Assembly (NCBI RefSeq): GCF_030908545.1
Contig: NZ_CP133083.1
Location: forward strand, 1,860,001-1,924,000
Reading direction: 5' to 3'
Length of the DNA: 64,000 nucleotides
From: Nitrosomonas sp. sh817
GTDB lineage: Bacteria > Pseudomonadota > Gammaproteobacteria > Burkholderiales > Nitrosomonadaceae
The first letter of the stretch is position 1; every line of letters starts with the position of its first letter. A program made the position numbers and the translations under genes. This document shows positions 54,794 to 64,000 of the stretch, piece after piece. Under the pieces are notes generated by a model. It did not search any database, was not told where the DNA came from, and was given only the letters and a program-made list of their open reading frames with translations.

Positions 54794-55367
54794 ACAACCA
54801 CCGGCTAAAGCCGGTGGGTTTGAGTTACGGACTGAAAGTCCGGATACGCGTCGACTAAACGACGCGTCTTATTCCGGCTCCATTTTAAAATTGTCGTTTG
54901 GATTTGGCTCAAAATGATGCTCCAAGTATTGTTTGATCATCTCTTCTGTCATCTGACCTACTGTCACGCAGAAATACCCTCGCGCCCAAAAATGCCTTCC
55001 CCAGTACCGCTTCTTCAAGTGAGGAAATTCTTCAAACAGATAGCTCGATGTTCGTCCTTTTAGCCGCCTCATGATCTCACTCGGAGCCATCTCCGGCGGA
55101 CAACTCACCAGAATATGCACATGATCCTTACTTACTACACCCTGTACAATTCTCATTTCAAATGCTTCACACGTCTGACGAACCAACTCTCGTACTCGTT
55201 CTGCTACTTCTCCCTTCAGAATCTTATATCTATACTTCGTTACCCATACAAAATGATATTCAATCTGATAAACCGTATGACTTCCATATCTATAATCCAT
55301 GCCACACCTCCTGTGTGGCATATTCTCGCAGCTAAAGCTGACCGGCTGAAGCCGGTGGTTTTAACCT
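54791..55367 (-). mobile_element. IS200/IS605-family insertion sequence (tnpA only)
   Basis: The element spans about 577 bp. Three hairpins form the left end: CCACCGGC/GCCGGTGG at 54798-54817, CGGACT/AGTCCG at 54828-54842 and ACGCGTCG/CGACGCGT at 54846-54867. The right end holds ACCGGC/GCCGGT at 55341-55356, then GGTTTTAACC. No terminal inverted repeats or target duplication are seen, as expected for this single-strand transposition family. The left border, after AAC, is TAAACAACC. Exact borders are uncertain by a few bases. No tnpB is present. Confidence 0.82.
54869..55300 (-). CDS. tnpA: IS200-type Y1 transposase TnpA
   Basis: The 143-residue HUH transposase has the HUH motif in KDHVHILVS (HVH) and the nucleophile Tyr in EEMIKQYLEHH. 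YQIEYHFVWVTKYR is the family opening. It cuts and joins single-stranded DNA at the hairpin ends of the element. The start at 55300 follows AGGAGG at ideal spacing; the extension to 55321 is the leader. All catalytic residues are intact, so it may be active. Confidence 0.92.
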   Translation of the reverse strand: MDYRYGSHTVYQIEYHFVWVTKYRYKILKGEVAERVRELVRQTCEAFEMRIVQGVVSKDHVHILVSCPPEMAPSEIMRRLKGRTSSYLFEEFPHLKKRYWGRHFWARGYFCVTVGQMTEEMIKQYLEHHFEPNPNDNFKMEPE

Positions 55368-56889: not shown

Positions 56890-57963
56890 CTATTGCAATG
56901 AAAGACTCTCCAGCGCTTTCTGGTGATTCCACTTGCCGTGAAATAACAGCCCTTTCTTGCCCGGCGTGCGGTCGCTGGTCCAAGTGATGTAATTGCCGTC
57001 CGGCGTGAAAACCGGCAAACCGTCGAAGCCGTCTTTGTCGGTCACGCGCACCGGCTCTTTGGTGCCGTCGGTATCGACGATGTACAGTTCAAAATTGCGA
57101 TGACCGTGCAAATTGGTAGCGAAAATGACGTATTTGCCGGATGGATGATAAAACGGCGCCCAGGACATCACGTTCAAGCGGGTAACCTGCTTCTGATCGC
57201 TGCCGTCGATATTCATCGTGAAAATTTCCGCTTCCCGTCCGCTGTCCGAGAAACGCCGCCATACGATGCGTTTGCCGTCGGGGCTAAAAAATGGACCACC
57301 GTCGTAACTTTTAGTGTGCGTCAATCGCTTCACGTTGGAACCATCCGCGTCCATGATGTAAATATCGATCATCGAAGCCGGGTTGGCTTTGAACAGCGCT
57401 TGTTCTTCTTCGGATAATTCACCGTTGTACGCGCGGCGATTGGAAGCAAACGCGATCAATTTACCGTCCGGCGACCATGAGGCTTCTGCATCGTAACCCA
57501 GCGTATTGGTTAGATTCCGCATGTTTTTGCCATCGAAACCGGTCTCAAAAATATCGTAATACTCATCGTAATCCCACGCATACGACTTCTGCTCCCCCGC
57601 TTTGCGCCGTTCGATTTCCTCGATCATTTTAGCTTTGGCCTGCGCATCGTCGTGGGTCGAGGAAAACAGCACTTTTTCCTGCGCCGGATGCACCCACGCG
57701 CACGTGGTCTTACCGCTGCCCGGCGATACCTGCGTCACCGCGCCGGATTCGATGTTTTTCAGGAAAATCTGGTAAAACGGATTGTCGTCCGCCACTTCCG
57801 CCTGATAAATCATCCACTTCGAATCCGCCCGGTAATACGCCTCCCCCGCGCGTTTTTCCTTGACGGAGAGCTGATGTTCATCGGTAATGAAATCACTGGC
57901 AGATGCATTTCCGATGCCAGCAGCCAAATATGCAAGCAACAACGCTGATGAGAATAATTTCAT
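56890..57963 (-). CDS. Exported PD40 (TolB-like) beta-propeller protein
   Basis: From the ATG at 57963 the protein has a signal peptide ending NASASD, then six or so PD40/WD-like repeats (for example WSPDGKLIAFASNR, FSPDGKRIVWRRF, FTPDGNYITWTSD) that form a propeller in the periplasm. It resembles the TolB propeller, but it has no TolB N-terminal domain. Near genes include an M1/M28 peptidase, and such propellers often sit with exported peptidases, so a role in protein or peptide handling is plausible. Confidence 0.82.
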   Translation of the reverse strand: MKLFSSALLLAYLAAGIGNASASDFITDEHQLSVKEKRAGEAYYRADSKWMIYQAEVADDNPFYQIFLKNIESGAVTQVSPGSGKTTCAWVHPAQEKVLFSSTHDDAQAKAKMIEEIERRKAGEQKSYAWDYDEYYDIFETGFDGKNMRNLTNTLGYDAEASWSPDGKLIAFASNRRAYNGELSEEEQALFKANPASMIDIYIMDADGSNVKRLTHTKSYDGGPFFSPDGKRIVWRRFSDSGREAEIFTMNIDGSDQKQVTRLNVMSWAPFYHPSGKYVIFATNLHGHRNFELYIVDTDGTKEPVRVTDKDGFDGLPVFTPDGNYITWTSDRTPGKKGLLFHGKWNHQKALESLSLQ

Positions 57964-58028
57964 TACTAAATTACCAAAACAAAATTTCACCGGCATTCCC
58001 AATCTAAAAAATTACCTGAAAATTAAAT

Positions 58029-61000
58029 CTAAATATTAAACAAATATTCAAGAATCTGCACACCACTCATACCACCAAAGGGAATTAGCAGTGCAGTTAA
58101 TGCTGCTTGATGTCCCAAACTTGCATAAACACCTTGATTTTCCTGCCGTATCAGAGAAACCAGTCGATCGATCTGTATCGTATTATTATTTGATTGAATT
58201 TTTTTTGCTTCATATTGATCCATCAAATCCATGCGGAATTTCTCAGCCGCTACACGCAAATGATAAGTTACTATTATTACGTAAACAATCGATACAATCA
58301 GAATAATAATCAATGACCATGGCATTCCAAACTGATCAAATATCTTACTTCGTCCTATTAAAATAAAAAAAATCATACCAAGCGGCAAATAAATTAACCG
58401 GCTAATACATTTGGCATGATCAACGATTAACTGAAATTGCAAGTATCGATGCAACAAGTGATGAGGAACACCGGTACGAACTTCTGCTAGTTGCATAGCT
58501 TCGTTGCTCCATAGTTGATCTCGGGAATCATCTTGTTTTTCTGTGCGCATCTCCTCAATCATTTTTTTACATGAAATTGTTTCGAAAGCAGTCCAAAAGA
58601 CTAGCACAAAAAGGCAAAACATTTGAATCACAAAAAGCCATGTATGTACGGAATTCACGATTGCTCCGCGATAAGGGAAATTGAGTGCTTCTTCAAACAT
58701 ATCAGTCTTTCCGGCTAAGACAAAATAAGACAATATGGTAAAGCAGAGCGAAACAATACCAATCCCACGCCACATTTTTTTTTGATAAGTATCACTGAAG
58801 TAGCTCACCCAAAATTCCACACGTACAACACTAGCCAGATTCTTACTATTTTGCTTATTACATTCACGTAGCCAATTAAAAAATGTGATGAAGAGCAAGA
58901 TGATAGTAATCAATCCAAAATAGCGAATGAATAGATTAGGCCAAACACTCACGCCTTCCAGCCAGTAGACCGGTTCTGAAATATCCGCATCTTGGTAAGC
59001 TTCAATAATGGTAAAAGGCAGCAAAATAAAACCTAATACTAATACAGTGGTAATGGAAATTACCAGCATTCCATTATTAAATGACCGTACAGGCGATAAC
59101 CCCACCCATTTCAATAATAAAAAGTGATATAGAAAAACAATAACAATAGCAGTTACAATCAGTTGGAGAATTTTATCCGCTATTATTGTCGTTCTTTCCC
59201 GTTCCCAAGAATGTTTTGACTCTATTGATGAATGCTTGTAATTCCTCCAGATTCTATCTGAATCGATCAGATTATTTTCGCGATCATCGTACTGGTCTAG
59301 CAATTCCACAACGCACTTTCTTTTTTCACTTTGCTGTTCAGCTCTTCTAGTATCAAGATTTATGCATTCAACCCAATCTTTAAGATAGTTAACCGACAAC
59401 GAATCAAGATGGATTGCACGCGTTTTCCCGATTTCGAAGACTTGAGGATTGGATACTATTGGCCGACCAGAACGATCAAGAAATTCTTTTTTAATCGCGG
59501 GTTTCTTACATTCTTCAACTTCTTTACACACCGCTGACCATGTCGCATAGTACAACGCAGTTTGGAAGCTGTCCCGAAAAGGCATGCTATTTCCCTGTAA
59601 CTCATGATCAAGCTTAAAGTCAAAATTGGAAGCGACCACCAGATTCCTAGTCCATTTCTGCTGATCCTTGTGGAGATAACGTGCGTCCAAATCGGTAGTG
59701 AACAAAATTTTGTTCGTGAATTTTTCGCGCAAAGCTTGCAAAACAATCAGCTTATCGTATACGTCGGAACCTATTACGCCGATCGCTTTAACGCCGTTTT
59801 TTGCAAAATTCGGATCATCATCAAGCGCAGCAATGGATTCTGTTAGCCGACGCAAGTAGTCATATTGATTTCGTCCTTCTGCATGCTCGGGAGGCGCATC
59901 ATCCCACTGCGTGACTGGATTATTATTAAAATTGACATCGGTGTTCTTTTTAATTTGGTACGAATCGGATGAAAGCTTTCCATCAATGCCGCGTAAATAT
60001 GAAAAACTGGTTATGAGATTGTCATTTTTAACTGTAGCATCTTTATCTTTGTCTATATTCTTGCCCCGTTTATTGCCACAATGTTTCCAGAAATCATTAT
60101 TCCTCATTTGATTAACCAGAGTACGTGAATAAAAGGTATCTAGCTCCGCTATGAGCACAATCCCATCGTTGCAATCCGGTTTACTACTGTTTGTGACAAA
60201 ATCAGTAATTGTTGTAGTTTTATTAACCCCTCTTTGATAAAGCTCCCAAAAAATTGCTGTTGCCAACTTATCATCAGTTCCAATGAATCGATAAATCTTT
60301 CTTACAGCTAAAGCTTCTTTAAGCGCTTCCTCCTTATCGTATCTGTTACAATACCAGTACTTTCTCCCTCCATTTTCGGGAGTGCTACCATCTTGGCATT
60401 CTTGATACCTTAGTCTATCAACAATACTTGCATCTGGAACGGTTGCGTTATAAATGTATGTTTCAAAAAAACTTCCGCCAGAAAACAGATTTGTACTCAC
60501 TGTCGTACTTTGTTGGGATTCTTGAATATCTGGAACGCGGAGGAGTTCCATAAGTAAATCAGTATTACTAGGTCCAATTAATTTAAAAGAAAATGGTGCT
60601 CTATTAATATTTTCTGCCGACTTCCAGGTATGATCTAATTGCTTAGCTAAACATTGAACAAATGTTGCATATTCAAGCTCAGTTAGCTTGATCATATGTT
60701 CATTAAGCCAGAGTATTAAAACATTGGAAGCCAAATCTGCAGTAGAAAACCACTCGTACGGTATTTCCACAGGATTTTCCAGGCTGCACCAATCCTTTAA
60801 TATTTCTGGTTTATACCGAAATAATTTTATGTGGTTCGATTGTTCCGGATAATATTGTTCCGTATCAAGTGCAGAAACCACCGCGAATCGAGCTCGCCGT
60901 CGCATTTCTGCCATTTCTGAGTATGAACTACCAGGAATACTAATTGCAGCGACAATTACTTTCTTTCGAGCATCCAGTTCATTCAACAGATTGTCAGCCA

Positions 61001-61229
61001 ACAGAAACGATGTGTCACTGTTTCTCTCACCAAATTTGAACTTATCCAGAGGATCCTGCCATAACCGAATTTCTGTAAAACTATTATCTTTCCAATCTTT
61101 GGCAACATCTGTATTCTCTGGACGAGCGCTACTTAAAGGAAGAAATATTTGACCTGATGCTGTTAAGACGAGTAAAACCAGCGCAACTACGTTAATCGGT
61201 AAATTGCTAAGTAAATTGTGCTGATTCAA
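58029..61229 (-). CDS. 1066-residue multi-pass membrane protein, unknown function
   Basis: I do not recognise a named family. One helix at about 11-33 anchors a large region (35-680) with alpha/beta, Rossmann-like strands (KVIVAAISIPG near 90-100, GIVLIAELDTF near 356-366, KAIGVIGSDVYDKLIVLQAL near 481-500 followed by KILFTTDLDARYL). These resemble type I periplasmic-binding-like lobes. Seven further helices lie at about 689-707, 720-741, 767-785, 820-840, 862-882, 944-959 and 971-989, and a short hydrophobic end. The first region should be periplasmic. The gene is markedly more AT-rich than its neighbours, which suggests transfer. No partner is fused; the PD40 gene follows 65 bp downstream. 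Confidence 0.8.
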   Translation of the reverse strand: MNQHNLLSNLPINVVALVLLVLTASGQIFLPLSSARPENTDVAKDWKDNSFTEIRLWQDPLDKFKFGERNSDTSFLLADNLLNELDARKKVIVAAISIPGSSYSEMAEMRRRARFAVVSALDTEQYYPEQSNHIKLFRYKPEILKDWCSLENPVEIPYEWFSTADLASNVLILWLNEHMIKLTELEYATFVQCLAKQLDHTWKSAENINRAPFSFKLIGPSNTDLLMELLRVPDIQESQQSTTVSTNLFSGGSFFETYIYNATVPDASIVDRLRYQECQDGSTPENGGRKYWYCNRYDKEEALKEALAVRKIYRFIGTDDKLATAIFWELYQRGVNKTTTITDFVTNSSKPDCNDGIVLIAELDTFYSRTLVNQMRNNDFWKHCGNKRGKNIDKDKDATVKNDNLITSFSYLRGIDGKLSSDSYQIKKNTDVNFNNNPVTQWDDAPPEHAEGRNQYDYLRRLTESIAALDDDPNFAKNGVKAIGVIGSDVYDKLIVLQALREKFTNKILFTTDLDARYLHKDQQKWTRNLVVASNFDFKLDHELQGNSMPFRDSFQTALYYATWSAVCKEVEECKKPAIKKEFLDRSGRPIVSNPQVFEIGKTRAIHLDSLSVNYLKDWVECINLDTRRAEQQSEKRKCVVELLDQYDDRENNLIDSDRIWRNYKHSSIESKHSWERERTTIIADKILQLIVTAIVIVFLYHFLLLKWVGLSPVRSFNNGMLVISITTVLVLGFILLPFTIIEAYQDADISEPVYWLEGVSVWPNLFIRYFGLITIILLFITFFNWLRECNKQNSKNLASVVRVEFWVSYFSDTYQKKMWRGIGIVSLCFTILSYFVLAGKTDMFEEALNFPYRGAIVNSVHTWLFVIQMFCLFVLVFWTAFETISCKKMIEEMRTEKQDDSRDQLWSNEAMQLAEVRTGVPHHLLHRYLQFQLIVDHAKCISRLIYLPLGMIFFILIGRSKIFDQFGMPWSLIIILIVSIVYVIIVTYHLRVAAEKFRMDLMDQYEAKKIQSNNNTIQIDRLVSLIRQENQGVYASLGHQAALTALLIPFGGMSGVQILEYLFNI

Positions 61230-61518
61230 GTTAATGCTCCTTTTGATGACGATAGTTTATTTGATACAACTTTTTACAAGTTAAAATTTCTTCTAGTCAA
61301 ATGAAGCTTGATACTGATCTTGTATGTAACATAATTTAAAAAATAGCTGATTAAATTTAAGTAACAAAATCTTAACTCAATCTCTTATCAACTATATCCC
61401 TTATTACTTATAAATTGAGCATAAGTATTCAATTTATTATAGTTACAACATCTGTACATTCCTGTGAGAAAAACCACATGACTAAACCACTTCATAAAAA
61501 TTTTCAATGGTCAATCGG
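61230..61518. other. AT-rich intergenic region
   Basis: This 289-bp gap is strongly AT-rich and has no gene. It separates the divergent unknown membrane protein and the M1/M28 peptidase and should carry both promoters; no box pair is assigned. Confidence 0.4.
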
Positions 61519-64000
61519 ATGAACTTAGCATTTCCAGAAAAGGTTTCTCTTGCATATGTTTTGATTTGGTTTTTAGCTATTTTTAGCTTGCTTCCACATA
61601 AAAATACATTTGCCTACAACACCTCCACCTTCCACCACACCATGCAAATCCAGTTGTCACCGGATAGCTCTGAAATCCGCGTCAAGGATCGGATTCAAAT
61701 TCCTGAGCAGGTACATAATGTTGGCGAACCGGTAAAACTGGCTTTTTATTTGCATGCCGCGCTAACGGTTACCGGCGTGCAGGATGCGACACTCGAAGTG
61801 GATGACGAAGAGATTGCACTGAAATCCCGTCCGATTTCGGTGCGGCAATACGCGGTCACGCTGCCGCCCGGCCAGAAAGCATTCACGCTGCAATACGGCG
61901 GTCAGATCCATCATGCAGTGCAAGGCCCGGGGCAGGAATATTCGCGCAGTTTCGGCTCGACGCCGGGCGTGATTTCGCCGGAAGGCGTGTTTCTGGCGAG
62001 CGCCAGCGCGTGGTATCCGCAATTTGGCGATGCGCTGGTGTCGTTCCAGTTGGATATTCAGGTGCCTGCCGGTTGGGATGTAGTCAGTCAGGGATCGCTC
62101 GTGCGCGAAAACGGAACCAGTGAAGCACAGCATATCGTTTGGGAGGAAAAACAGCCGCAGGACGATATCTACTTGATCGCGGCGAAATTCCATCGGTATA
62201 CGCAATCCGCCGGAGCGGTGAAAGCACTGGTGTATCTGCGCAGCGCCGATCAACCGCTGGCGCAGCGGTACCTAGACGCCACCGCGCAGTACATCGCGAT
62301 GTACAACAAGCTGATCGGCCCCTACCCGTACAGCAAGTTCGCGCTAGTCGAAAATTTCTGGGAAACCGGTTACGGCATGCCGTCGTTCACGCTGCTCGGC
62401 TCCAAGGTGATCCGCCTGCCGTTCATTTTGCATTCGTCGTACCCGCATGAAATTTTGCACAACTACTGGGGCAACGGCGTGTTCGTCGATTATACCAAGG
62501 GCAATTGGGCGGAAGGCTTGACCGCGTATCTCGCCGACCATCTGATCAATGAGCAGCGCGGCAAAGGCGAGGAATACCGCCGCGACGTGCTGCAAAAATA
62601 CGCGGATTTCGTTGGCAAGGAGAAGGATTTCCCGATTATCCGCTTCGTCTCGCGCCACAGCGCCAGTTCGGAAGCGGTCGGTTACGGCAAGACGATGATG
62701 TTTTTCCACATGCTGCGGCTGGAACTGGGCGACGAAGCCTTCACCAAAACGCTGCGGCGCTTCTATCAGCAATTCAAATTCCAGCAAGCGACGTTTGCCG
62801 ATTTGCTCGCCACGTTCAACGCCGTCACCGACAAGGATCTGACACAACGCTTCGAGCAATGGGTGCAGCGCACCGGTGCGCCGGATCTTGTCTTGCGGAA
62901 CGCCGAGACCGAACCGCACGGCGATGGTTATAAACTCACGCTGACCGTCGAGCAAACCCAAGCGGGTGAACCGTATCGCTTGCAAATACCATTAGCCATC
63001 ACAGTGCACGGCGAAGATATGGTCGTCGAATCGCGCATCGGCCTCGAACAGAAAATACAAACGTTCGAACTGGAATTCGCCAACCGCCCGGTGCGCATCG
63101 ATCTTGATCCGCATTTCGACGTGTTCCGCCGCCCGGACAGCCGCGAGATTCCCTCGGCGCTATCGCAAGGCTTCGGTGCGGAAAAACCGCTGCTGATCTT
63201 ACCGGCACGGGAGCAGAAAGCCGTGCTGGAAGCGTACCGCGCGTTGGCGGCCAATTGGCAGAAAACCCAATCGAGCCCGCTGGAAATCGTCACCGATGAT
63301 CAATTAAAAAAGCTCCCCGATAATCGTACCGTCTGGATTCTCGGTTGGCAAAACCGGTTTGCGAACAACATCTTGAAAAACCTTGCCGAGCGCGATGTTT
63401 CGTATCAATCCGGCCAATTACAACTCAATCATAAACGCTACCCGCAAAACGGTCATGCGATTGTGTTAAGCGCACGGCAATCCGCCAATCCCGATAAAAC
63501 CTTGCTGTGGGTCGCCGCCGACACGCCGCAAGCAGTCACCGAACTCGCCAACAAACTGCCGCATTACCGCAAATACAGTTATTTGGTGTTCAAAGGCGGT
63601 GAACTGACCAATATCGACAAAGGCCAATGGCCGGTTTTGCAGTCACCACTATCGCAGCCGGTGTCACAAAAAGACGGATTTACGATTGATGCCGCCCATG
63701 CGGCGCATGCCGGCATCACTAAGCCGCGCCGGGCATTGGCGGAACTGCCGCCGGTATTTTCCGAAAGCCGCATGATGGACGATATCAATCACTTGGCGCA
63801 CGAATCGTACAAAGGCCGCGAGCTCGGCACGCCGGAACTGGACGAAGCCGCGACTTATATCGCCAAGCAATTTCAGCAAATCGGCCTGCTGCCGGGCGGC
63901 GACAGCGGCAGTTTTTTCCAGACCTGGCAACAGGATGTCGGATTGCCGAAAGGCAACATCACCTTGCGTAACGTCGTCGGCATTCTACCCGGCACCAACC
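61519..64000 (+). CDS. M1-M28 fusion metallopeptidase, 3' end beyond window
   Basis: An open frame runs from the ATG at 61519 to the edge (827 codons). A hydrophobic N-terminal segment ([18 protein letters not shown]) suggests export. The M1-like part has the zinc motif HEILH (His310, Glu311, His314) and the third ligand Glu332 in NWAEGLTAY; the usual GxMEN motif is replaced by TGYGMPSF. From about residue 747 an M28-type domain begins ([20 protein letters not shown], then [18 protein letters not shown]). The fusion of two aminopeptidase-type domains suggests peptide processing outside the cytoplasm. The C-terminus is missing. Confidence 0.85.

Follow-up and report, generated by a model that had tools for sequence, protein, structure and literature searches.

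What kind of protein joins a region resembling a binding protein to a block of membrane helices, and what might it do? The question is raised by a minus-strand gene in a 64,000-nucleotide stretch of the Nitrosomonas sp. sh817 genome (contig NZ_CP133083.1, positions 1,860,001 to 1,924,000; hereafter the window). Its complete frame runs from a TTG at 61229 to a stop at 58029, and its 1066 codons agree with the protein length given in a preliminary description made from the sequence alone. Predicted structures suggest that the product, here called the receptor, is probably a ligand-gated ion channel of the inner membrane, in which a periplasmic type I binding domain and an extra helix precede a membrane domain of the 7TMIC fold. 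The most likely working mode is that of a periplasmic ligand sensor opening a cation pore. The preliminary description had proposed that a ligand is sensed outside and acted upon in the membrane; the models are consistent with an outside sensor coupled to a membrane domain, and add an output, unnamed in that description, that most resembles the 7TMIC channel fold.

Sequence searches give little indication of such an identity. The whole protein matched no Pfam, NCBIfam or PDB-sequence family above cut-off, which accords with the earlier remark that no transporter or kinase of this plan is known: no named family of either sort was recovered by sequence above its cut-off. Each half, searched as profiles or members against Pfam and PDB sequences, returned no binding-protein or insect-receptor family (for one of these half-protein searches, the best 25 of 101 families were inspected), and alignment of the membrane block to fruit-fly Orco by hhalign had a probability of 0.3%, against 0.1% for an NnrS membrane protein control. 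Relatives of the receptor itself are numerous. A protein search recovered 210 at E<=0.001, of which the best 120 were listed and 70 of those aligned. In a one-genome-per-species scan, 257 of the 296 pattern matches were relatives, from which the best 80 loci were kept; 71 of these were aligned with the window (the other nine had a frame of <900 aa, or another overlapping frame preferred by the frame caller), and 53 of 70 usable loci, with the window, formed the nucleotide and codon set. Compared with the closest fetched copy (L055, 84% identical), the gene has a dN of 0.085 and a dS of 0.502, and therefore appears to be kept by selection as a maintained protein.

The predicted model and structure searches assign residues 88-620 to a two-lobe Rossmann fold of the type I binding-protein type, or Venus flytrap. 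The same fold is found in the periplasmic binding proteins LivK, AmiC and UrtA, and in the amino-terminal domains of ionotropic glutamate receptors (matched rows include GluK5, 3om1, and an NMDA receptor, 6e7t). Unlike the type I binding proteins, however, the receptor flytrap is tethered to the membrane and fused to a membrane block; at ~530 residues, against about 335-395 in the matched chains, it must also carry long insertions. No Pfam binding-protein profile matched any of 54 members at E<=1. Conserved positions within the domain include G219, P220, S/T223 and A262-T263, which may resemble the ligand-binding Ser/Thr motifs between the lobes of LivJ/K. The flytrap likely resides in the periplasm, placed there by the N-terminal anchor.

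Behind the flytrap lie eight hydrophobic membrane segments, TM0, S1-S6 and S7b, with family-averaged hydropathy peaks at 687-705 (TM0), 720-738, 766-784, 823-841, 863-881, 941-959, 973-991 and 1042-1060. The single anchor and Rossmann-type region of the preliminary description were thus recovered, but its seven C-terminal helices become eight segments. Structure searches with the membrane-block model repeatedly return insect odorant and gustatory receptors (ORs and GRs): these occupy rows 1-12 in Foldseek, and rows 1-11 and 19 of the first 21 in VIA, where the matches cover about model positions 60-399 (residues 716-1055). Membership criteria for 7TMICs are given in section 5 of PMC9998090. 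On these points, the modelled block has seven membrane helices (S1-S6 and S7b, plus the extra TM0 in front), insect ORs and GRs as its closest solved structures, longer intracellular loops, long TM4-TM6 reaching into the cytosol, and a split TM7. The score against Orco is 0.33-0.34 by Foldseek's own alignment, whereas the criterion in PMC9998090 (about 0.5 or more) uses TM-align. The structural alignments with insect receptors show 6-14% identity, and the bacterial and insect proteins share no sequence-search signal. It is conceivable, if improbable, that the likeness is convergence or a model artefact, and that the protein is another kind of sensor with a private eight-helix membrane domain.

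The topology would also be that of the insect receptors. An N-terminal anchor and a periplasmic flytrap would direct TM0 inward and S1 outward and leave the end of S7b outside, as in insect receptors. The N-terminus of the membrane block would accordingly be cytosolic, and the loop charges fit in part: net charge follows the positive-inside rule in the loops TM0-S1 and S2-S3, in the first loop on the periplasmic side and in the S6 tail, but gives no guidance in the S4-S5 loop (-0.66) or the second periplasmic one (+0.06). With this orientation, the intracellular loops between hydrophobic cores measure 38, 59 and 50 residues, against 27, 21 and 13 for the extracellular ones. The models further predict long helices at 856-896, 927-959 and 971-1012 that project into the cytosol, and an S7 split into S7a (1017-1029) and S7b (1042-1065). 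In BmGr9, as described in PMC11100771, S1 and S3 only span the membrane, S2, S4, S5, S6 and S7a reach the cytosol, and S7b lies in the pore; the modelled receptor block appears to repeat this pattern.

Mean conservation is highest in two places. The periplasmic loops average 2.05 bits (26/56 columns >2 bits) and S7b averages 2.09 bits (14/26 columns), with lower means in S1-S6 (1.49 bits) and the cytosolic parts (1.41 bits); the difference between periplasmic loops and helices has a p of 0.066 and is not significant at 5%. The first periplasmic loop contains the conserved residues E752, P753, G759, S761, W763 and P764, and the periplasmic loops may be the surface that feels flytrap closure. 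S7b has the consensus PFGGxGGxxLxEYL, with a conserved PFGGxGG and a terminal [EDQ][YF] (E, D or Q in 94%, then Y or F in 94%). The TYhhhhhQF signature of insect gustatory receptors is absent from it, although by eye the terminal polar or acidic residue followed by Y or F recalls the QF of that signature. In a working channel, a small molecule would bind between the flytrap lobes, whose closure would be transmitted by TM0 and by the conserved loops on the periplasmic side; S5 and S7b would move, and four subunits, joined by a cytosolic anchor bundle, would open a central pore for cations and so alter the membrane potential or the ion content.

The 7TMIC-fold block could instead function without a channel, as a ligand-sensing scaffold whose cytosolic helix bundle relays the signal to a partner protein. 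In favour of such a role, 7TMIC-fold proteins such as PHTF lack a clear function (PMC9998090), and the cytosolic parts contain highly conserved residues, such as W807, Y810 and W907. Neighbours of the receptor were compared with PADLOC and Pfam, the comparison covering 116 of the 214, taken from the beginning of their list. Response regulators and histidine kinases lie near some copies, as neighbour clusters 6 and 8, each identified from one member, in 8 and 7 of the loci. However, no partner recurs across lineages: the neighbour clusters are mostly lineage-specific, the commonest Pfam family reaches 4/116 neighbours, and a two-component-system partner was rejected, with only 3/116 neighbours matching each of its two Pfam families. 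The high conservation of S7b, the pore helix in insect receptors, also argues against a scaffold, which we regard as possible but unlikely.

The pairing of flytrap and membrane block is a consistent property of the family. Among 211 collected proteins, 185 have both domains, 26 have a flytrap without a detected membrane block and none has the membrane block alone, though the set was gathered with queries from the receptor family, and distant membrane blocks fused to other domains would escape it. The flytrap-only proteins end 1-194 residues past the flytrap match, 25 of them within 137 residues and one (P0140) at 194. A profile search of shorter proteins for a stand-alone block, scoring the 8,000 candidates with the most words in common, gave only P0121, a protein of 496 aa from a 1,888-base contig; it begins within the flytrap and therefore appears to be a truncated piece. 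A tethered solute-binding domain might also pass its ligand to a membrane permease in the same chain, forming a single-chain uptake system. Tethered binding proteins do occur in transport, and the flytrap resembles the substrate-binding proteins of ABC transporters; but no ATPase or permease family recurs nearby (ABC_tran in 2/116 neighbours) and none of the 21 best VIA rows for the membrane block is a transporter, making this role very improbable.

A ligand-gated channel of this design would differ from known systems in several respects. It shares the predicted fold over S1-S7b with insect GRs, ORs and the 7TMIC superfamily (Gr43a, BmGr9, Orco, MhOR5), including long S2, S4, S5 and S6 reaching into the cytosol, a split S7 and, by its inferred orientation, a C-terminus outside. 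But it has TM0 and a periplasmic flytrap in front, and its ligand would be expected to bind in the flytrap, not in the S1-S6 pocket as in insect receptors. Class C G-protein-coupled receptors also place a flytrap outside and a seven-helix block in the membrane, giving the same outline; their helix topology, however, is opposite to that inferred here, and the only G-protein-coupled receptor seen in 50 Foldseek rows was 6z4v, at rank 44 with a probability of 0.05. Trypanosome GRL1 (MORN repeats) and GrlHz (WD40) also combine a 7TMIC-type block with an N-terminal extra domain; in PMC9998090 these domains are described as cytoplasmic or protein-binding, whereas that of the bacterial receptor has a periplasmic ligand-binding fold. 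A search of BFVD with the membrane block gave weak matches only, among them three uncharacterised giant-virus proteins (A0A1V0SCD1, A0A5K0UB49, A0A3G4ZRZ0; probability 0.69-0.82), possible viral proteins of the 7TMIC fold.

The membrane fold itself is of a known kind. An earlier structural screen reported no 7TMIC proteins in the prokaryotic proteomes it covered (PMC9998090), and a later review discusses eukaryote-to-prokaryote transfer of 7TMICs; from a sentence of that review, prokaryotic members appear to be known already (PMC11526382). A literature search, not covering Himmel, Moi and Benton 2023, found no fusion of a 7TMIC-type block to a type I binding protein. If the present reading is true, the receptor represents a new class of ligand-gated channel in bacteria, whose ligand-binding domain is soluble and separable, and its ligands and gating would therefore be directly accessible to study. 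More tentatively, and at somewhat less than even chances, bacteria, above all nitrifiers and methanotrophs, use a flytrap-gated channel of the insect-receptor superfamily; on this reading the architecture would be an ancient bacterial one, and a channel formerly driven by a periplasmic binding protein would be the ancestor of insect-type receptors or would have a common ancestor with them. The receptor may thus bear on the origin of insect chemoreceptors, and hundreds of bacterial proteins, from at least five phyla by record titles, provide material for testing transfer against a bacterial origin.

Judged by their record titles, the 80 loci kept come from Pseudomonadota, Nitrospirota, Nitrospinota, Desulfobacterales and planctomycetes, and comprise 29 ammonia oxidisers, 16 nitrite-oxidiser lineages, 10 methanotrophs, 2 anammox bacteria and 23 others (8 Variovorax). 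This list is biased towards nitrifiers because it was ranked by similarity to a nitrifier protein; even so biased, the frequency in ammonia, nitrite and methane oxidisers hints at a new sensory input in organisms of the nitrogen and carbon cycles. Presence is patchy at finer scales. Matches at E<=1e-5 occur in 18/37 genomes of the same genus (three as a short piece only) and in 1/24 other genomes of the order, and 6/398 genomes across the phylum match at E<=1e-20, including the window's own and one of its genus. The closest relative among the matches listed is a protein named Nitrosomonas, 84% identical. The window's genome has three copies: that in the window, one split by a transposase gene (G000:C1:1712180-1716735) and a third at C1:727008-730211.

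Table 1. Features of the receptor gene and its flanks in the window (residues are those of the receptor protein)
Feature	Position	Strand	Basis
Receptor gene, 1066 aa, TTG start	58029..61229	-	open frame; dN/dS vs L055
AGGAG ribosome-binding site (within AAGGAG), seven bases upstream of TTG	61237..61241	-	sequence
N-terminal signal anchor, residues 12-26	61152..61196	-	model helix; hydrophobic stretch in sequence
Type I periplasmic binding protein (Venus flytrap) domain, residues 88-620	59370..60968	-	fold match of predicted model
TM0, flytrap-to-membrane linker helix, residues 674-708	59106..59210	-	hydropathy peak 687-705; helix in both models; outside 7TMIC match
7TMIC-like membrane block S1-S7b, residues 716-1065	58035..59084	-	VIA matches to insect GR/OR; Foldseek
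First periplasmic loop, candidate coupling surface, residues 743-765	58935..59003	-	11/23 columns >2 bits
S7a, predicted cytosolic helix, residues 1017-1029	58143..58181	-	models; hydropathy
S7b, predicted pore helix, residues 1042-1065	58035..58106	-	column counts; 14/26 columns >2 bits
PD40 beta-propeller gene, flanking, not part of receptor	56890..58002	-	Pfam; in 54/61 genomes of genus
M1-type peptidase gene, flanking, not part of receptor; runs off window	61507..63999	+	Pfam; locus order

The history of the locus suggests a receptor that is exchanged or diverges quickly. The receptor gene lies between peptidase and propeller in 7/19 loci (the window and L037-L054), with a transposase gene intervening in one. 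In the 30 fetched propeller loci, the propeller is adjoined by the receptor in 10 (the window among them), by the peptidase in its place in 12, and by neither gene, over about 1.5 kb, in 8. In nine other loci with both receptor and propeller (among L136-L164), the propeller is 84-90% identical to that of the window, but the part of the receptor in reach (C-terminal) is 29-36% identical by local alignment; receptors at one site have therefore been replaced or are diverging far faster than their neighbour. Whole receptors at the peptidase and propeller site are about 33-43% identical to the window's, with one at 84%, and a single genome bin (G016) holds two loci of this kind whose receptors differ (84% and 33% identical to the window's), which may also reflect mixed strains. 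The receptor gene is an accessory sensory gene, of strain-variable presence at one site between the peptidase and the near-universal propeller.

A gene that is patchily present at one fixed site and has diverged strongly relative to its neighbour would also suit a defence effector that senses infection and opens the membrane, the kind of role the preliminary description had put forward together with a check of homologue neighbours for defence genes. The protein's sole PADLOC match is a weak one, to a CARF-TM model at residues 637-735 (E 0.0035), which takes in the first membrane helices and the linker that follows the binding domain. Genes matching defence models do occur near some copies: 73 PADLOC families match at least one of the 116 neighbours at E<=1e-10 (raw counts without a background rate), and the 25 of these that were listed include type II methyltransferases, DpdF and a type IIG enzyme. 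None recurs, the commonest reaching 3/116 neighbours, and other neighbours are housekeeping genes, such as HSP90, a tRNA synthetase and, judged by eye on its N-terminus, DNA polymerase III alpha. With a peptidase and a propeller as neighbours at the window site, and a sensor of periplasmic small-molecule fold, a defence role has only a slim chance of being correct. In five Nitrospira loci (L086, L087, L119, L121, L130) the receptor lies between DNA polymerase III alpha, identified by its N-terminus, and a short gene run containing NnrS.

The base composition differs from that of the flanking genes, as noted previously: GC content is 0.381 in the receptor gene, against 0.515 in the propeller gene, 0.551 in the part of the peptidase gene inside the window and 0.478 in the window overall, and falls to 0.256 in the 277 bases upstream. 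Across the family, the gene is lower in GC than its flanks in 39/60 loci with >6 kb of flank (mean difference 0.018, p 0.005), and low GC is only a slight trait of the receptors. The median length in the peptidase cluster is 1,128 aa, and the last residues of the peptidase inside the window resemble the start of a second, M28-type peptidase domain. The split receptor copy of the window's genome (L037:6184-10751) and one in G020 (L039:7238-11227) are interrupted near the N-terminal end by DDE_3 transposase genes of one cluster, of the IS630 type. An IS200-like Y1 transposase gene is located in the window at 54869-55321 (Pfam PF01797, E 9.4e-47).
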